A program made the position numbers and the translations under genes. From assembly GCA_003167415.1 (NCBI GenBank), contig PMTF01000015.1, forward strand, positions 56,006 through 120,005: a stretch of DNA of 64,000 nt. Direction: 5' to 3'. Numbering within the stretch: the first letter of the stretch is position 1; each line of letters opens with the position of its first letter. The DNA is from Acidimicrobiaceae bacterium. GTDB taxonomy: Bacteria > Actinomycetota > Acidimicrobiia > Acidimicrobiales > RAAP-2. Under the pieces are notes generated by a model. It made no database searches and had not been told where the DNA came from. It saw only the letters and a program-made list of their open reading frames with translations. Below are positions 41,566-51,204 of the stretch, piece by piece.

Positions 41566-41871
41566 GTGAAACAGGTAACGAAGAACAGATCAGCGGCAAA
41601 GAACACGGTTACGGATGTCCGCGACGATGAGAAGCCCAACATCAACAACGAGTCTTTGATGATCAGTCTTGGTGATGCGGCGCAGATGCTAGGAATCCAC
41701 CGTACGACTGCCTGGGCGATACATGACCGCGGCGACTTTCCGGTGCCGGTGATCAAGGTCGGCGGTCATTGGCGTGTCGTGCGCGCGCATCTCCATCACT
41801 TCATTAACACCGGAGAAAGGGTGACGCTGCCGTTCAATCCGATCTCTGATTCAACGTTTACTGCGCGCTGA
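41566..41871 (+). CDS. excisionase-like HTH protein
   Basis: 101 aa from GTG 41566, which follows GGAGAA. The HTH (LMISLGDAAQMLGIHRTTAWAIHDRGDFPVPVIKVGGHWRVVRAHLHHFI) is an HTH_17/excisionase pattern. Its stop overlaps the integrase 3' end on the other strand by 21 bp. A convergent xis-int arrangement is common; it may be the directionality factor of the tRNA-Lys element. Confidence 0.75.
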   Translation: MKQVTKNRSAAKNTVTDVRDDEKPNINNESLMISLGDAAQMLGIHRTTAWAIHDRGDFPVPVIKVGGHWRVVRAHLHHFINTGERVTLPFNPISDSTFTAR

Positions 41872-43059
41872 ATTCTTCTTGGAAGGCTGGTGCTTCTTCG
41901 CACTCGTCTTCTTGTCGGGCGCTGATGTCGCCACACTCACTCGGTCATCCATAAAGCCAGCGGCTTCCTGGTCGCTCGCCTTAACGAAGTGTGAGTACAC
42001 CGACAAGGTAGTCGCCGGATTTGCGTGACCAAGTCGCCCAGACACGGTGCGTACTGGCAGTCCTCCAGCCATCATTTCCGTCGCTGCGAAGTGACGAAGG
42101 TCGTGAAGACGCATGTTGTGGTATCCGAGCTCGCGCTTTATCTCTGCGAACTTGTGAGTCACGTTGCCCGGAGTCCACGGCTTATGGCCATCAGGTTCGT
42201 GGGAAAACATGTAACTGTCTCCCCGCACGCTCTCGCCGACCAACGCGGCGCGTTCCTCAGCGTTTCGACGCTGGGCTTCGAATACCTCCATCGTTGACTT
42301 TCCGAGCGCGATGCTGCGACTCGCGTGAGTCTTCGTGTCCTTCCTGCGCAACCCTCCGGGCACTTCGATGATGGAGTTTTCGATCGTCAGGGTTGCATTC
42401 TTGAAATCGAGATTGTCCCAGTAGAGCGCGCATATCTCACCCCTGCGGGCACCGGTGGTTGCGGCCACGCGGATGAAATTGCCGAATTGCTCATCGCGTT
42501 CATAGGCCGCGCGCAAGAGCTGGCTCACTTCATCTGGGTCGGGGGGAGTGAGGTCAGCCTTCTCCTGGCGTGGCGGCGTCGCGTTGATAGCGGGGTTGTT
42601 GGCAATCCAACCCCAAAGCACCGCCTGGCGCATTGACCGGCGAATGATTGCGTGGATCTGACGGACAGTCGAGTGGGAGAGTTCGAATCTGTCGACGAGC
42701 CCGTCGTAGAGGTTGTCAAGGTCGATCGATTGGATGCTGCTCACTTGGCGGTTTCCAAGAGCGGGGTAGACCCGGTTCTCCAGAAGGTTCCTATACGTCC
42801 GCTGGGTGGTCGGACTCTGGTTGCGTTTATTCATATTGAGCCAGCGCTCGGTGAGATCTCGAAAGGTCGCCGATGAGGTCGCGAGGAGTCTTCCCGCGTC
42901 TGCCTCGGCGATCATGGCGTTAAGCACCTTCTGGGCTTCTCGCTTAGTTCCCTTTACGTTTTTGCTGAGCCGTCTGAGTTCGCCGGTAACGGGGTCTCGT
43001 CCGATCGCGTACCTGACCTGCCAGACGCCGGGGTATTTCTCTCGAATGCTTCCACTCAT
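41851..43059 (-). CDS. tyrosine recombinase/integrase
   Basis: 402 aa, complete. The N-terminal arm-binding segment (IREKYPGVWQVRYAIGRDPVTGE) and SAM-like core-binding domain precede the catalytic domain: Arg I in ATTGARRGEICALYW (about 207), HxxR in LHDLRHFAATEMMAGG (about 316), and Tyr in SVYSHF (about 354). It reads away from the tRNA-Lys 3' end 110 bp upstream, a normal int-att arrangement, so tRNA-Lys is its likely attachment site. Confidence 0.92.
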   Translation of the reverse strand: MSGSIREKYPGVWQVRYAIGRDPVTGELRRLSKNVKGTKREAQKVLNAMIAEADAGRLLATSSATFRDLTERWLNMNKRNQSPTTQRTYRNLLENRVYPALGNRQVSSIQSIDLDNLYDGLVDRFELSHSTVRQIHAIIRRSMRQAVLWGWIANNPAINATPPRQEKADLTPPDPDEVSQLLRAAYERDEQFGNFIRVAATTGARRGEICALYWDNLDFKNATLTIENSIIEVPGGLRRKDTKTHASRSIALGKSTMEVFEAQRRNAEERAALVGESVRGDSYMFSHEPDGHKPWTPGNVTHKFAEIKRELGYHNMRLHDLRHFAATEMMAGGLPVRTVSGRLGHANPATTLSVYSHFVKASDQEAAGFMDDRVSVATSAPDKKTSAKKHQPSKKNSARSKR

Positions 43060-43169: not shown

Positions 43170-43245
43170 TGGTGCGCCGGCCGGGACTTGAACCCGGAAC
43201 CTGTTGATTAAGAGTCAAATGCTCTGCCAATTGAGCTACCGGCGC
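43170..43245 (-). tRNA. tRNA-Lys (anticodon CTT)
   Basis: 76 nt with encoded CCA. Acceptor GCGCCGG/CCGGCGC, D-arm GCTC...GAGC, anticodon loop CTCTTAA (CTT), T-arm CCGGG-TTCAAGT-CCCGG. It forms the right boundary of the mobile DNA. Confidence 0.95.
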
Positions 43246-44828: not shown

Positions 44829-44905
44829 TGGGGTGAGCGACGGGGGTCGAACCCGCGGCCTCCAGGACCACAACCTGGCGCTCTAACCAACTGAGCTACG
44901 CCCAC
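44829..44905 (-). tRNA. tRNA-His (anticodon GTG)
   Basis: Acceptor GTGGGCG/CGCTCAC, anticodon loop TTGTGGT (GTG), discriminator C, encoded CCA, and an extra G at position -1 (44906), which is diagnostic for tRNA-His. Confidence 0.95.
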
Positions 44906-44981
44906 CAAGTGGAACCAGTATTGCACAGGGCTCTTCACGTGAGCCAAGAATCCGTCGGTGGTTCAGTACGCTTAGCCGTAC

Positions 44982-45055
44982 GCCCCTGTAGCTCAACTGG
45001 ATAGAGCAGACGGTTTCTACCCGTCAGGTTGCGGGTTCGACTCCTGCCGGGGGCA
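44982..45055 (+). tRNA. tRNA-Arg (anticodon TCT)
   Basis: 74 nt without encoded CCA. Acceptor GCCCCTG/CGGGGGC, anticodon stem GACGG/CCGTC with loop TTTCTAC (TCT), and T-arm GCGGG-TTCGACT-CCTGC. Divergent from tRNA-His. Confidence 0.95.
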
Positions 45056-45084
45056 CCGTTGTCTTGGACCCAATGTCTCGCTAC

Positions 45085-45137: not shown

Positions 45138-48100
45138 TTAGTGCGAAACGGTGTAACTGTAGGGAATCGCGGCGAGCTGGTCGGAGTCCGGCAGACCGAC
45201 GTAATTACTGCCGAGCGTGTAGTCGTCGACGTAGAGGGTTCCTTGGACCCTGCCCCCCCGAGTGCTGGACACGTTGACGGTCACCGGAATGGTGATCGAT
45301 GCCCCAGGGGCCAAGTACGCGGGTGAGAAGAAGCCGGAAAGTCCGTTGAAGGCTGACCACATGTCACCCGTGGACGACGTCATCGTCGGGTCGAAGGTCT
45401 GGGTAACGGCGTTCAGGTTCGCGCTCGCAGTGACCGCCGGCGCCCCCGTGGCCGGGTACGGTCCGATTTCATCGGGGTTGAGTAGCCACAACCCCGGACT
45501 GACTTCGGGTTCGTTCAGCGTCACGTTGGCGCTGTCCCCATTAATCGATCCCGTGGTCGACCACCGGCTGTTCACTCCCGGTGAGATATCGGGGTCGCCC
45601 GGGAAGTACTCGAGGTCGAACGTCACCGGTGCCGAGCCCGTAATGCTCGCTTGGAGCTGACTCGTCTCCGAAGGCACGAAGTAGTACGGGAAGGGGTTTG
45701 CATTGGTCAGAAGGGGTAGGGGAAGCGTCATGTTCGTAGCCGGCACAAAGGGATTCTGATCCGGCAGGCTGATCGTCTCGTTCTGGTTCAACCGGGGGTC
45801 GACGAAGATCGCCTCGGGCGCGCTACCGGTATTGGTGACGTTGACGTCGAAGGTCTGCGTGCTGCCCGTTTCGAACCTGGCGTGATTGGGAAGGTTGCTG
45901 GTTACCTTCACCTGGTTGAACTGGATCGTGCCCGTGAACGGCTCGCTGAGTTCGAGTCCGGAAACGGGATTGAGCCAATCGACGATCAGCGACCATTGTC
46001 CGCCCACCGGATTCACCGCGTACAGGTTCGCCGTTAGATCGCCAACGGGGGACCCGGAACTGCCGTCGAGGTTCGTCGAGTAACCAACCGTCTGGCCACT
46101 CGGGTTGACGAGTTCGGCGATGAAGGTGTCGTTGGGGTCACCGGCCAAAGCCACACTCGCGTCGAGGTCGTTCTGTCCCCACGGCACGTGGAAGGCGTAA
46201 GTGTTCGTGGTGGCCGGGGCTCCGCCGCGACCATTGCCGCCCGTGAGCAGGCCGCTGAACGTTCCCCCAGTGTGGTCGGTTGGTACGGTCGTGCGCACCG
46301 TTACCGGCACCGTGGTCGTGCCGTAGGGGCTCGAGACCACGACGGATTGACTGGCGTCACCCGAGATTGAACTCGCGAGCGAGAGGTGCGCGAAGCCAGT
46401 TTGACCGGGTCCGATGGTCAAAGACGACGGGAAGATGTTGCCGCCTGAGACATAGTTGAACGTGTTGGCGCTCCACTGTATTAGTCCGCTGGTGCCGACG
46501 TATATGGGTGGGGTTGAGGTGTCGGCCGCGGTGAAGAACACCGCGGTCCACTTACCCGCTGGCGGATTGGTCACCTCGACCTCGCCGTAGTCACCCAGTC
46601 CCTGAGGGAGCGAGTACGCGGCGTAGGACCCGTTGGGTTCAATGAGCGCGAAATGGAGTAATGAGTTCTGTCCGGTGTACTGGTAGTCGGCGGCGAATTC
46701 AAGTCTCGAGAGACTAGTCGTCGTGGGTACCGTGAAGCTCTGGTCCTCAAAGACCTCGTTCACTCCGCTCCAGATCGGGAACACCCCAGTATTGGAAGGA
46801 CACGCCGTCGTCCCAGCGCCGGGCTGCATGCAGAAGGAGCCTGTCTGAGAAGCGAAGGGTGCGGACGCGAGCGCCCTCGTTGACAGTTTCACCGTGACCG
46901 GGCTGGCCCCGGTGTTGGTCACCTGGACGAACTGGTTGGCGGTGTCGCCCGGATCTTGGACCACGTTGATCTGTCCGGGGTTGATGAGCAGTCCGCCACC
47001 GGACGCGCTGGACGAAGGTGGTCCGCTGTTAAAACCACCACGGATCGACTTGGCCTCTTTCACGGCCGCGAGGACGTTCAAGAGTCCGGCGCCTTGTTCG
47101 GTCGCGGGAGCGCCGATGTCGGTGGCCGTGCTCATGAGGATCTCTTTCACCAAAGCCGGCGTGGGGTCGTTGCCGTTGTGCGTCGAGGCGTAGGCCCCAA
47201 TGACGTCAGCGGCGGCGCCAGCGGTCAGCGGGGACGACTCACTCGTCCCGCCAGTGAACTCAATGGGCGAACCGGCACCGTTCTCGTTGGTGCAGTCATT
47301 GAACATGGCGACGTTTATACTGCAGAGCGCCCAGTTGAGGTCGCCCGGCGCTACGAGGTCGACGGTGTTGCCGGCCTGGGTGTAACCACCCGAGGAGAGG
47401 CTCGAGATATTGTTGTCGACCGTCGCACCAGTCGCGTTGGGGTCGTTTATCCCGCCATAGGTTACTTGGTCGTAGCCGCGGAACGTCGTTGACGCGCCGA
47501 CGCTGATGACATTGGGGTCGGTAGCCGGTGAGCCGATGGTGCTCGTGACTCCCGCGTCACCAGAACTAACGACCACGGTGACGCCCGCCGCGACCGCGGC
47601 GTCGTCGGCCTCACGGGTGACGTCGAGTGCGGTGTCGGGGAAGTTGTTCGAGCCGAAGGACTCGTTGATGACCTTGGCGCCACTCGAAACGGCGAAGTTG
47701 ATCGCTTGGAGGAAACCCGACTCGGTGGTGTCGTTGTTCTCGGAGAATACCTTGAGGGCTTCGACATTGGCACCGGGGGCGACGCCGACGATCTTGATGT
47801 CACAGCTGGTCGGCAGCGGGTGCGCCGTTGACACGAACTGGGAGAGGTCGTACGTCGAGTTACCCTGGGCGGCGATCGAACTGGCGTCAAGGAACGCTTC
47901 ACCGCCGGGCGTGGCGACGGACGATGCGTCGCCGGAGAAGTCGTACTGCGTGACCACGGGCGCGCCGGCGACTCCGTACGCAGCGTTGCGCTGAAAGTCC
48001 GCATTCGTGGGGTCGAGGCCGTCAGCGATGGTTGCGACAGTCACGCCGGTGCCGACATTGTTACCCAACTGCGAAGGCGTGGCATTGATGTTGGTCAGTG

Positions 48101-48599
48101 CCTCGGGATTCAGTTGCGGGTTGGCGGCGGTACCGCAGGAGGGCGGTGTGACTGTGACAGTGTGCGGAGTGATGCTGTGACTCGTCTTGGCGCCGGGGAC
48201 GGACAACACAACCTTCGAGCTGGGAACTGGTCCGGGGATCACAGTATTACGGAGTACCTGAGACACCGCGGGATTGGCGGCCAGTAGGCGCGCTTCGGCT
48301 GGAGACAACTTGGCGATCACCGCATTTATAAGGCTGAGTGAGGAAATGTGCGTGGCCCCGCTCGCCCGTAACGACTTAATGATCGGAGCCTGCTCGATGC
48401 GGACGGCGGCGCGGCGCGCGGCTGAACGCGCGGCGAGCGAACTGTTTTGATCGCGCAGCATGACGATCATCACCCGAGCCGGTCCAGATGACCGCGCAGC
48501 GGCACTGCCTGCCGATCCGTCGACCAGGAAAGCCCCGCAACTCACCACTAATGCCAGGGCGGCGGTGCCGACTCGGCGAGAATGACTCTTTCGCAACAT
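45138..48599 (-). CDS. large secreted subtilase-like (S8/S53) protein
   Basis: 1153-aa secreted protein with a signal peptide (VGTAALALVVSCGAFLVDG) and a propeptide-like region up to about 180. The start is ATG 48599 (GGGGGA at good distance). The peptidase domain keeps Asp in IADGLD (about 193/196), SSGDAG (Asp about 348) and GGTSESSPLTAG (Ser about 453). The His segment of S8 (HGTHVAG) is replaced by GGEAFLDASSIAAQG. Glu and Asp four apart there match sedolisin (S53). The C-terminal ~650 residues are a series of beta domains that probably mediate surface attachment. Confidence 0.8.
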   Translation of the reverse strand: MLRKSHSRRVGTAALALVVSCGAFLVDGSAGSAAARSSGPARVMIVMLRDQNSSLAARSAARRAAVRIEQAPIIKSLRASGATHISSLSLINAVIAKLSPAEARLLAANPAVSQVLRNTVIPGPVPSSKVVLSVPGAKTSHSITPHTVTVTPPSCGTAANPQLNPEALTNINATPSQLGNNVGTGVTVATIADGLDPTNADFQRNAAYGVAGAPVVTQYDFSGDASSVATPGGEAFLDASSIAAQGNSTYDLSQFVSTAHPLPTSCDIKIVGVAPGANVEALKVFSENNDTTESGFLQAINFAVSSGAKVINESFGSNNFPDTALDVTREADDAAVAAGVTVVVSSGDAGVTSTIGSPATDPNVISVGASTTFRGYDQVTYGGINDPNATGATVDNNISSLSSGGYTQAGNTVDLVAPGDLNWALCSINVAMFNDCTNENGAGSPIEFTGGTSESSPLTAGAAADVIGAYASTHNGNDPTPALVKEILMSTATDIGAPATEQGAGLLNVLAAVKEAKSIRGGFNSGPPSSSASGGGLLINPGQINVVQDPGDTANQFVQVTNTGASPVTVKLSTRALASAPFASQTGSFCMQPGAGTTACPSNTGVFPIWSGVNEVFEDQSFTVPTTTSLSRLEFAADYQYTGQNSLLHFALIEPNGSYAAYSLPQGLGDYGEVEVTNPPAGKWTAVFFTAADTSTPPIYVGTSGLIQWSANTFNYVSGGNIFPSSLTIGPGQTGFAHLSLASSISGDASQSVVVSSPYGTTTVPVTVRTTVPTDHTGGTFSGLLTGGNGRGGAPATTNTYAFHVPWGQNDLDASVALAGDPNDTFIAELVNPSGQTVGYSTNLDGSSGSPVGDLTANLYAVNPVGGQWSLIVDWLNPVSGLELSEPFTGTIQFNQVKVTSNLPNHARFETGSTQTFDVNVTNTGSAPEAIFVDPRLNQNETISLPDQNPFVPATNMTLPLPLLTNANPFPYYFVPSETSQLQASITGSAPVTFDLEYFPGDPDISPGVNSRWSTTGSINGDSANVTLNEPEVSPGLWLLNPDEIGPYPATGAPAVTASANLNAVTQTFDPTMTSSTGDMWSAFNGLSGFFSPAYLAPGASITIPVTVNVSSTRGGRVQGTLYVDDYTLGSNYVGLPDSDQLAAIPYSYTVSH

Positions 48600-51038: not shown

Positions 51039-51129
51039 GGCATCATTTTGCACCGGCCGCTGGCTGAGTGACGCGATGACGCCGACGGATCGCCGCGCCA
51101 GCGACGTAAGTGATGGAGGAAAAACTGAG

Positions 51130-51204
51130 TCGGGGCGCCGGGATTCGAACCCGGGACCTCCTGGTCCCAAACCAGGCGCGCTAACCAAGCTGCGCTACGC
51201 CCCG
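51130..51204 (-). tRNA. tRNA-Pro (anticodon TGG)
   Basis: 75 nt without CCA. Acceptor CGGGGCG/CGCCCCG, anticodon arm CCTGG-TTTGGGA-CCAGG (TGG), T-arm CCGGG-TTCGAAT-CCCGG. Confidence 0.95.

Follow-up and report, generated by a model that had tools for sequence, protein, structure and literature searches.

A probable serine-carboxyl protease with sedolisin-type catalytic residues on a subtilase scaffold in an Acidimicrobiaceae bacterium

Our analysis of a 64,000-nucleotide stretch of an Acidimicrobiaceae contig (hereafter the window) indicates that one of its minus-strand genes likely encodes an active, probably acid-active, secreted serine-carboxyl endopeptidase, which would run a sedolisin mechanism on a subtilase scaffold; its activity, pH optimum, and substrate are what we infer. 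Sedolisins and subtilisins have a common fold and different catalytic triads; sedolisins are sensitive to tyrostatin-type aldehydes and insensitive to pepstatin. The coordinates and strand of the reading frame were confirmed, and its features are as follows.

45138..48599, minus strand: whole gene, 1153 aa; ATG start, with GGGGGA ending 6 bases upstream of the ATG.
48492..48599, minus strand: putative signal peptide, residues 1-36, identified and delimited by eye.
48234..48491, minus strand: probable I9-type propeptide, about residues 37-122, from PF05922 and a predicted beta-alpha-beta-beta-alpha-beta pattern.
47043..48140, minus strand: subtilase-fold catalytic domain, residues 154-519, from PF00082 and an AlphaFold2 model.
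48012..48026, minus strand: ADGLD 192-196, with Ala192 in the S8 Asp32 column, from alignments and column counts.
47886..47900, minus strand: EAFLD 234-238, which holds Asp238 and, at the S8 His position, the proposed general base Glu234, each in 23/23 rows and in a model helix.
47658..47666, minus strand: NES 312-314, with invariant Glu313; counterpart of sedolisin NVS 131-133, from column counts and the accessible part of PMC11593635.
47556..47567, minus strand: SSGD 345-348, with Asp348 at the oxyanion position in 23/23 rows; the same letters as sedolisin SSGD 167-170 in the accessible part of PMC11593635.
47241..47252, minus strand: GGTS 450-453, with the nucleophile Ser453, in 23/23 rows.
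47178..47180, minus strand: His474, the sole invariant His, beyond the far end of the helix starting at Ser453, from rows and model.
45141..47042, minus strand: C-terminal region, residues 520-1153, with weak sub-threshold family matches.

Conservation was counted over 25 rows from 24 genes (the window's gene included), 23 of which cover each catalytic position. Glu234, Asp238, Asp348, and Ser453 were each identical in all 23 covering rows. Glu234 sits at the subtilase His column, Asp238 follows one helical turn later, and Asp348 replaces the subtilase oxyanion Asn in 23/23 rows. The Asp-His-Ser triad of S8 is absent: the His column is Glu throughout (23/23), and the column of subtilisin Asp32 (residue 192) holds Ala in 21 rows, Gly in 1, and Pro in 1, with Asp in none. 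We place Ala192 in this column because VATIADGLD aligns gap-free on the subtilase strand V-A-V-V/I-D-T/S-G-V/I, which puts Asp193 one residue later; column 193 is acidic in 22/23 rows (D 18, E 4, G 1) and hence not invariant. His474 and Glu313 were also invariant in 23/23 rows, though they lie outside the proposed active set.

A sequence-only reading of this gene had picked out the strings GGEAFLDASS, SSGDAG, and GGTSESSP, and all three are present, with E234 and D238 four residues apart, D348 where subtilisins have Asn, and S453. Its proposal that a sedolisin-like Glu/Asp pair takes the place of the catalytic His has the support of the pair's position and invariance and of the predicted helix. 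It had also held that the S8-type Asp of ADGLD is still present, which proved incorrect: that column is Ala192, and Asp193 is out of register and variable. With Ala in the S8 Asp column and Asp193 unconserved, the mixture of S8 and S53 catalytic residues that it described finds no support; the catalytic set is wholly S53-type, and it is the scaffold and propeptide that are S8-type.

The window protein resembles sedolisins (MEROPS S53; sedolisin 1GA6, kumamolisin 1GT9) in E234AFLD238, SSGD348, and TS453, which correspond to sedolisin E80WDLD84, SSGD170, and TS287 in the accessible part of PMC11593635. Further segments given there (IT33-34, NVS131-133, SSGD167-170, and TS286-287) have their counterparts in IA191-192, NES312-314, SSGD345-348, and TS452-453. 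The same part of that source states that in the sedolisin family the acid does not occupy its own segment, and the part of PMC6278154 available to us describes the sedolisin Glu as replacing His, the sedolisin Asp as non-homologous to the subtilisin Asp, and the oxyanion Asp as homologous. In 1GA6, the Ser-Glu and Glu-Asp contacts measure about 2.6-2.7 A (PMC11593635, accessible part). Kumamolisin Glu32 bonds Asp82 (PMC11593635, accessible part); by analogy, and as speculation, Asp/Glu193 might bond as Glu32 does. The window family is also like S53 in that its composition leans that way, and unlike S53 in having an I9-type propeptide rather than Pro-kuma_activ and a profile nearer S8. Compared with S8 subtilases (MEROPS S8; subtilisin BPN', Vpr, and the same-class GTSQAAA-type), it shares PF00082, the I9-type propeptide, and the PDB and fold matches listed, but it has Glu for His, Ala in the Asp32 column, Asp for the oxyanion Asn, and a new Asp238.

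In the mechanism that we propose, the I9-type propeptide would fold and inhibit the catalytic domain until extracellular cleavage removes it. Glu234, standing where subtilases have His, would then deprotonate Ser453; Asp238, a turn further along the helix of Glu234, would fill the role of subtilisin Asp32, and Asp348 would line the oxyanion hole. With a carboxylate as the base instead of an imidazole, the enzyme would be expected to have an acid pH optimum.

As to the scaffold, the isolated domain (residues 154-519) matched PF00082 with E 6.2e-29 (101.6 bits against a cut-off of 21.8), and 6/6 members of our first family alignment were above the cut-off. When the full-length chain was searched, no S8 match from Pfam appeared at E up to 1, perhaps owing to biased composition; given this silence beside the 101.6 bits of the domain, similar proteins may be overlooked in annotation. 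The window propeptide matched PF05922 below its cut-off (E 0.0057, 17.7 bits vs. 21.2). Among 19 members, 10 showed an I9-type propeptide at E up to 1 (PF05922, best 2.3e-8), and none showed Pro-kuma_activ (PF09286) in its propeptide at the same threshold. AlphaFold2 returned a pLDDT of 57.5 and a pTM of 0.57 for propeptide plus domain, and 73.5 and 0.82 for the domain alone; the propeptide of the first model has the beta-alpha-beta-beta-alpha-beta pattern, and in both models a helix begins at Glu234 (helix 234-243, containing Asp238). The domain-alone model aligned end to end with Bacillus subtilisins (267-271 residues, 2.1-2.2 A, Z 34-35), but it supports the fold and not the active-site geometry, because its input alignment consisted mostly of His-type viral subtilases that pull the model towards S8. 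The top Foldseek match of the first model was unprocessed pro-subtilisin E, with a poor overall rmsd of 16.5 A. The best 50 structure matches listed for the domain-alone model were all subtilases, as were the PDB sequence matches listed (including the best 60 of 95 and the best 60 of 71); the lack of an S53 entry among the PDB sequence and fold matches listed carries no weight against S53.

Profile comparisons placed the family nearer to S8. Unanchored hhalign scores were 330 for family-S8, 100 for family-S53, and 117 for S8-S53, and the mean identity of the family was 0.28 to S8 and 0.216 to S53 (27 S8 and 16 S53 sequences, with one mis-split family row). We also built an anchored alignment of 47 S8, 16 S53, and 20 family rows over 274 columns, which left out 13/60 S8 and 10/26 S53 loci that the motif patterns could not cut. 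Modal residues of the family sided with S8 against S53 in 72 of these columns and with S53 against S8 in 22. In only 3/274 columns (E234, D238, and D348) did the family and S53 have the same invariant residue with no S8 row carrying it; as rows were cut by motif, S8 has His/Asn and S53 has Glu/Asp by construction, and the informative part is that there is no other such column.

With regard to acid adaptation, the family had a K+R fraction of 0.030, compared with 0.061 in S8 (10/47 rows of this set are viral; cellular S8 0.057) and 0.014 in S53, a level that the family still exceeds (p 1.2e-5). His accounted for 0.005 of family residues (S8 0.019, S53 0.003) and S+T+N+Q for 0.272 (S8 0.206, S53 0.270); D+E was equal in the family and S8 (0.098 each, p 0.89). 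By these fractions, the composition of the family leans to that of sedolisins.

The repertoire of the genus points the same way. Pro-kuma_activ was found in 18/19 sampled genus genomes vs. 2/12 genomes from other families of the order. PF00082 gave 13 matches in the same 19 genomes, of which 12 have Glu/Asp-type motifs (two of these are the protease family itself) and the 13th is a fragment at a contig edge that lacks the His region; one of the 12 (L059) also holds an HGTH string, and in the alignment it has Glu/Asp at the active site. No His-type subtilase was found in the 19 sampled genus genomes, and in the other families of the order PF00082 had matches in 12/12 sampled genomes. According to the accessible part of PMC6411800, S53 has a strong association with an acidophilic lifestyle and S08 a strong negative one. 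The suggestion in the sequence-only reading that the protease is acid-active thus stands as far as residues, composition, and genus repertoire go, all of them indirect, and acid activity itself would be the expected consequence. Contigs of two relatives are titled palsa, which we take to be acid peat. In the protease's own genome, PF09286 had matches in two other places only. One locus of this genome (L181, G000:C27:1-3900) is a true sedolisin with Pro-kuma_activ; a long insert separates its oxyanion Asp from its Ser region, and the repeats of this insert look by eye like those of a YVTN-type beta-propeller.

How the active site arose is a separate matter from how it works. One origin, to which we give slightly less than even odds, is that the complete sedolisin set (Glu, Asp four residues on, and oxyanion Asp) arose a second time, convergently, from within the His-type subtilases; the sampled members of the genus use sedolisins, and we found no His-type subtilase in them. 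The alternative, which we consider rather unlikely, keeps the same mechanism and makes the family an evolutionary intermediate, as the sequence-only reading had suggested: the family would branch off between S53 and the His-type subtilases as a whole, with a later origin of the His triad on the S8 stem. The family formed one side of a branch in the FastTree, mixture-model, and long-branch-free trees, and S53 did so in the latter two. FastTree kept the sampled S8 apart from the family with support of 0.99 when the three catalytic columns were included and 0.53 when they were removed; a smaller set, which omitted the family row L014, gave 0.64 and 0.63. The same separation was obtained with support of 49 after the removal of long-branch rows; a tree in which S8 was held together was 31 log units better than that of the quick search (p-AU 0.85). 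These results favour an intermediate position. Against it, the quick mixture-model tree without catalytic columns nested the family inside S8 beside the GTSQAAA-type subtilases (support 83, not starred), and in the long-branch-free set a tree holding the family with that type was 9 log units better than the free search (p-AU 0.63). The I9-type propeptide gives no polarity because it is shared with S8. Whether S8 excludes the family therefore depends on method (two alignments and two kinds of model).

The proposal that the protein is a non-peptidase homologue (e.g., a binding protein that keeps the fold), also raised by the sequence-only reading, appears improbable. The classical triad is indeed absent, and the Pfam silence on the full-length chain would fit, but that miss disappears with the isolated domain, the propeptide is kept, and the invariance of the four catalytic positions goes together with purifying selection. 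In the catalytic domain, dN/dS was 0.15 (L004), 0.15 (L005, 96 codons), 0.09, and 0.18 in four pairs, and it was 0.23 over the full length and 0.26 in a C-terminal part; the ratios are rough in 3/6 of these comparisons because dS was above 1. The record of L004 is titled Chloroflexi, which may be a binning error. That the protein is a genuine S53 sedolisin which drifted after losing its large propeptide is, in our view, very unlikely. This would explain the identical catalytic residues and similar composition, in a genus sample where sedolisins are common, but the profile scores and modal columns run to S8, the propeptide is I9-type, and the fold matches span whole subtilisins.

The catalytic domain contains two His only. 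H260 is variable (H 13, L 4, N 2, G 1, and 5 rows without a letter), and H474, invariant in 23/23 rows, sits shortly after the distal end of model helix 452-472, whose opposite end is at the Ser, and is an estimated ~28 A from the Ser along that helix (1.5 A per residue). A normal triad completed by a His elsewhere, the case that the sequence-only reading had named against itself, was rejected, H260 being variable and H474 distant along the model helix. We give almost no credence to an ordinary His-type subtilase misread, with a triad from Asp193 and some His: residue 193 is acidic in nearly every row, but it misses the register by one residue, all 23 rows have Glu in the His column, and the sole invariant His stands at the end of a long helix away from the Ser.

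The serine-carboxyl protease family is patchy and discrete in the genomes sampled. A scan of genome contigs gave 2 loci. Matches were found in 13/172 genomes of the taxonomic family (E up to 1e-25; one of them with seven matching pieces) and in 3/396 genomes of a phylum sample, each count including the genome itself, and in 1/8 genomes from the order of one distant member. In a class sample (296 genomes, our own counted), six matches scored 456-595 bits and the next dropped to 92. Two new loci above this gap carry the Glu/Asp set; of 24 loci under it, 21 have HGTH and a Ser motif and 3 have no pair by pattern, and the nearest non-family sequences in this sample were subtilases. The pSCAT copy of Streptantibioticus cattleyicolor shared 53% identity over the domain. 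Homology extends over the full length: 16/18 aligned frames in 15 loci span 1127-1240 columns (38-64% identity), and the remaining two are pieces of one shorter copy. In the genome with seven pieces, one copy is split over two frames (L034 and L035, G513:C51:61807-62891), which is either a decayed gene or an assembly error. The C-terminal region (residues 520-1153) is conserved across the family loci along with the remainder of the protein; no family matched it above its cut-off, and its sequence is possibly that of Ig-like beta-sandwich modules.

We compared window frames of at least 120 aa between 38 and 60 kb with 15 other family loci (flanks of a few kb, some ending at contig ends), and only the gene and frames overlapping it matched. 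With no neighbour in common, the protease probably acts alone. A phage origin was set aside, as our phage collection gave no match. The gene is flanked by tRNA-His/tRNA-Arg (44829-45057) on one side and tRNA-Pro (51129-51204) on the other, which would be in keeping with its patchy presence. Elsewhere in the window, an ORF on the minus strand (41851-43059) resembles a tyrosine integrase by eye and adjoins tRNA-Lys (43170-43245, minus strand), and a lower-GC stretch from 32 kb lies beside both; together they are perhaps an integrated element.

We found no description of the protease family in the open-access literature. The protein of PMC3159910, labelled 'S8 and S53', is an ordinary His-type subtilase as far as the accessible part of that paper goes. 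The S8 family label conceals the difference in the active site. A CDD model is named Peptidases_S53_like (cd05562); no mention of it was found in the open-access papers searched. If convergence is true, nature has turned a His-based serine protease into a carboxyl-based one while keeping a single scaffold; if the intermediate position is true, the family is a surviving intermediate form between S8 and S53. One scaffold with another active site offers a tractable system for asking how one of these protease families can turn into the other, with few positions to exchange and natural relatives on either side, and the protease may serve as a useful acid-active enzyme on a subtilase scaffold.
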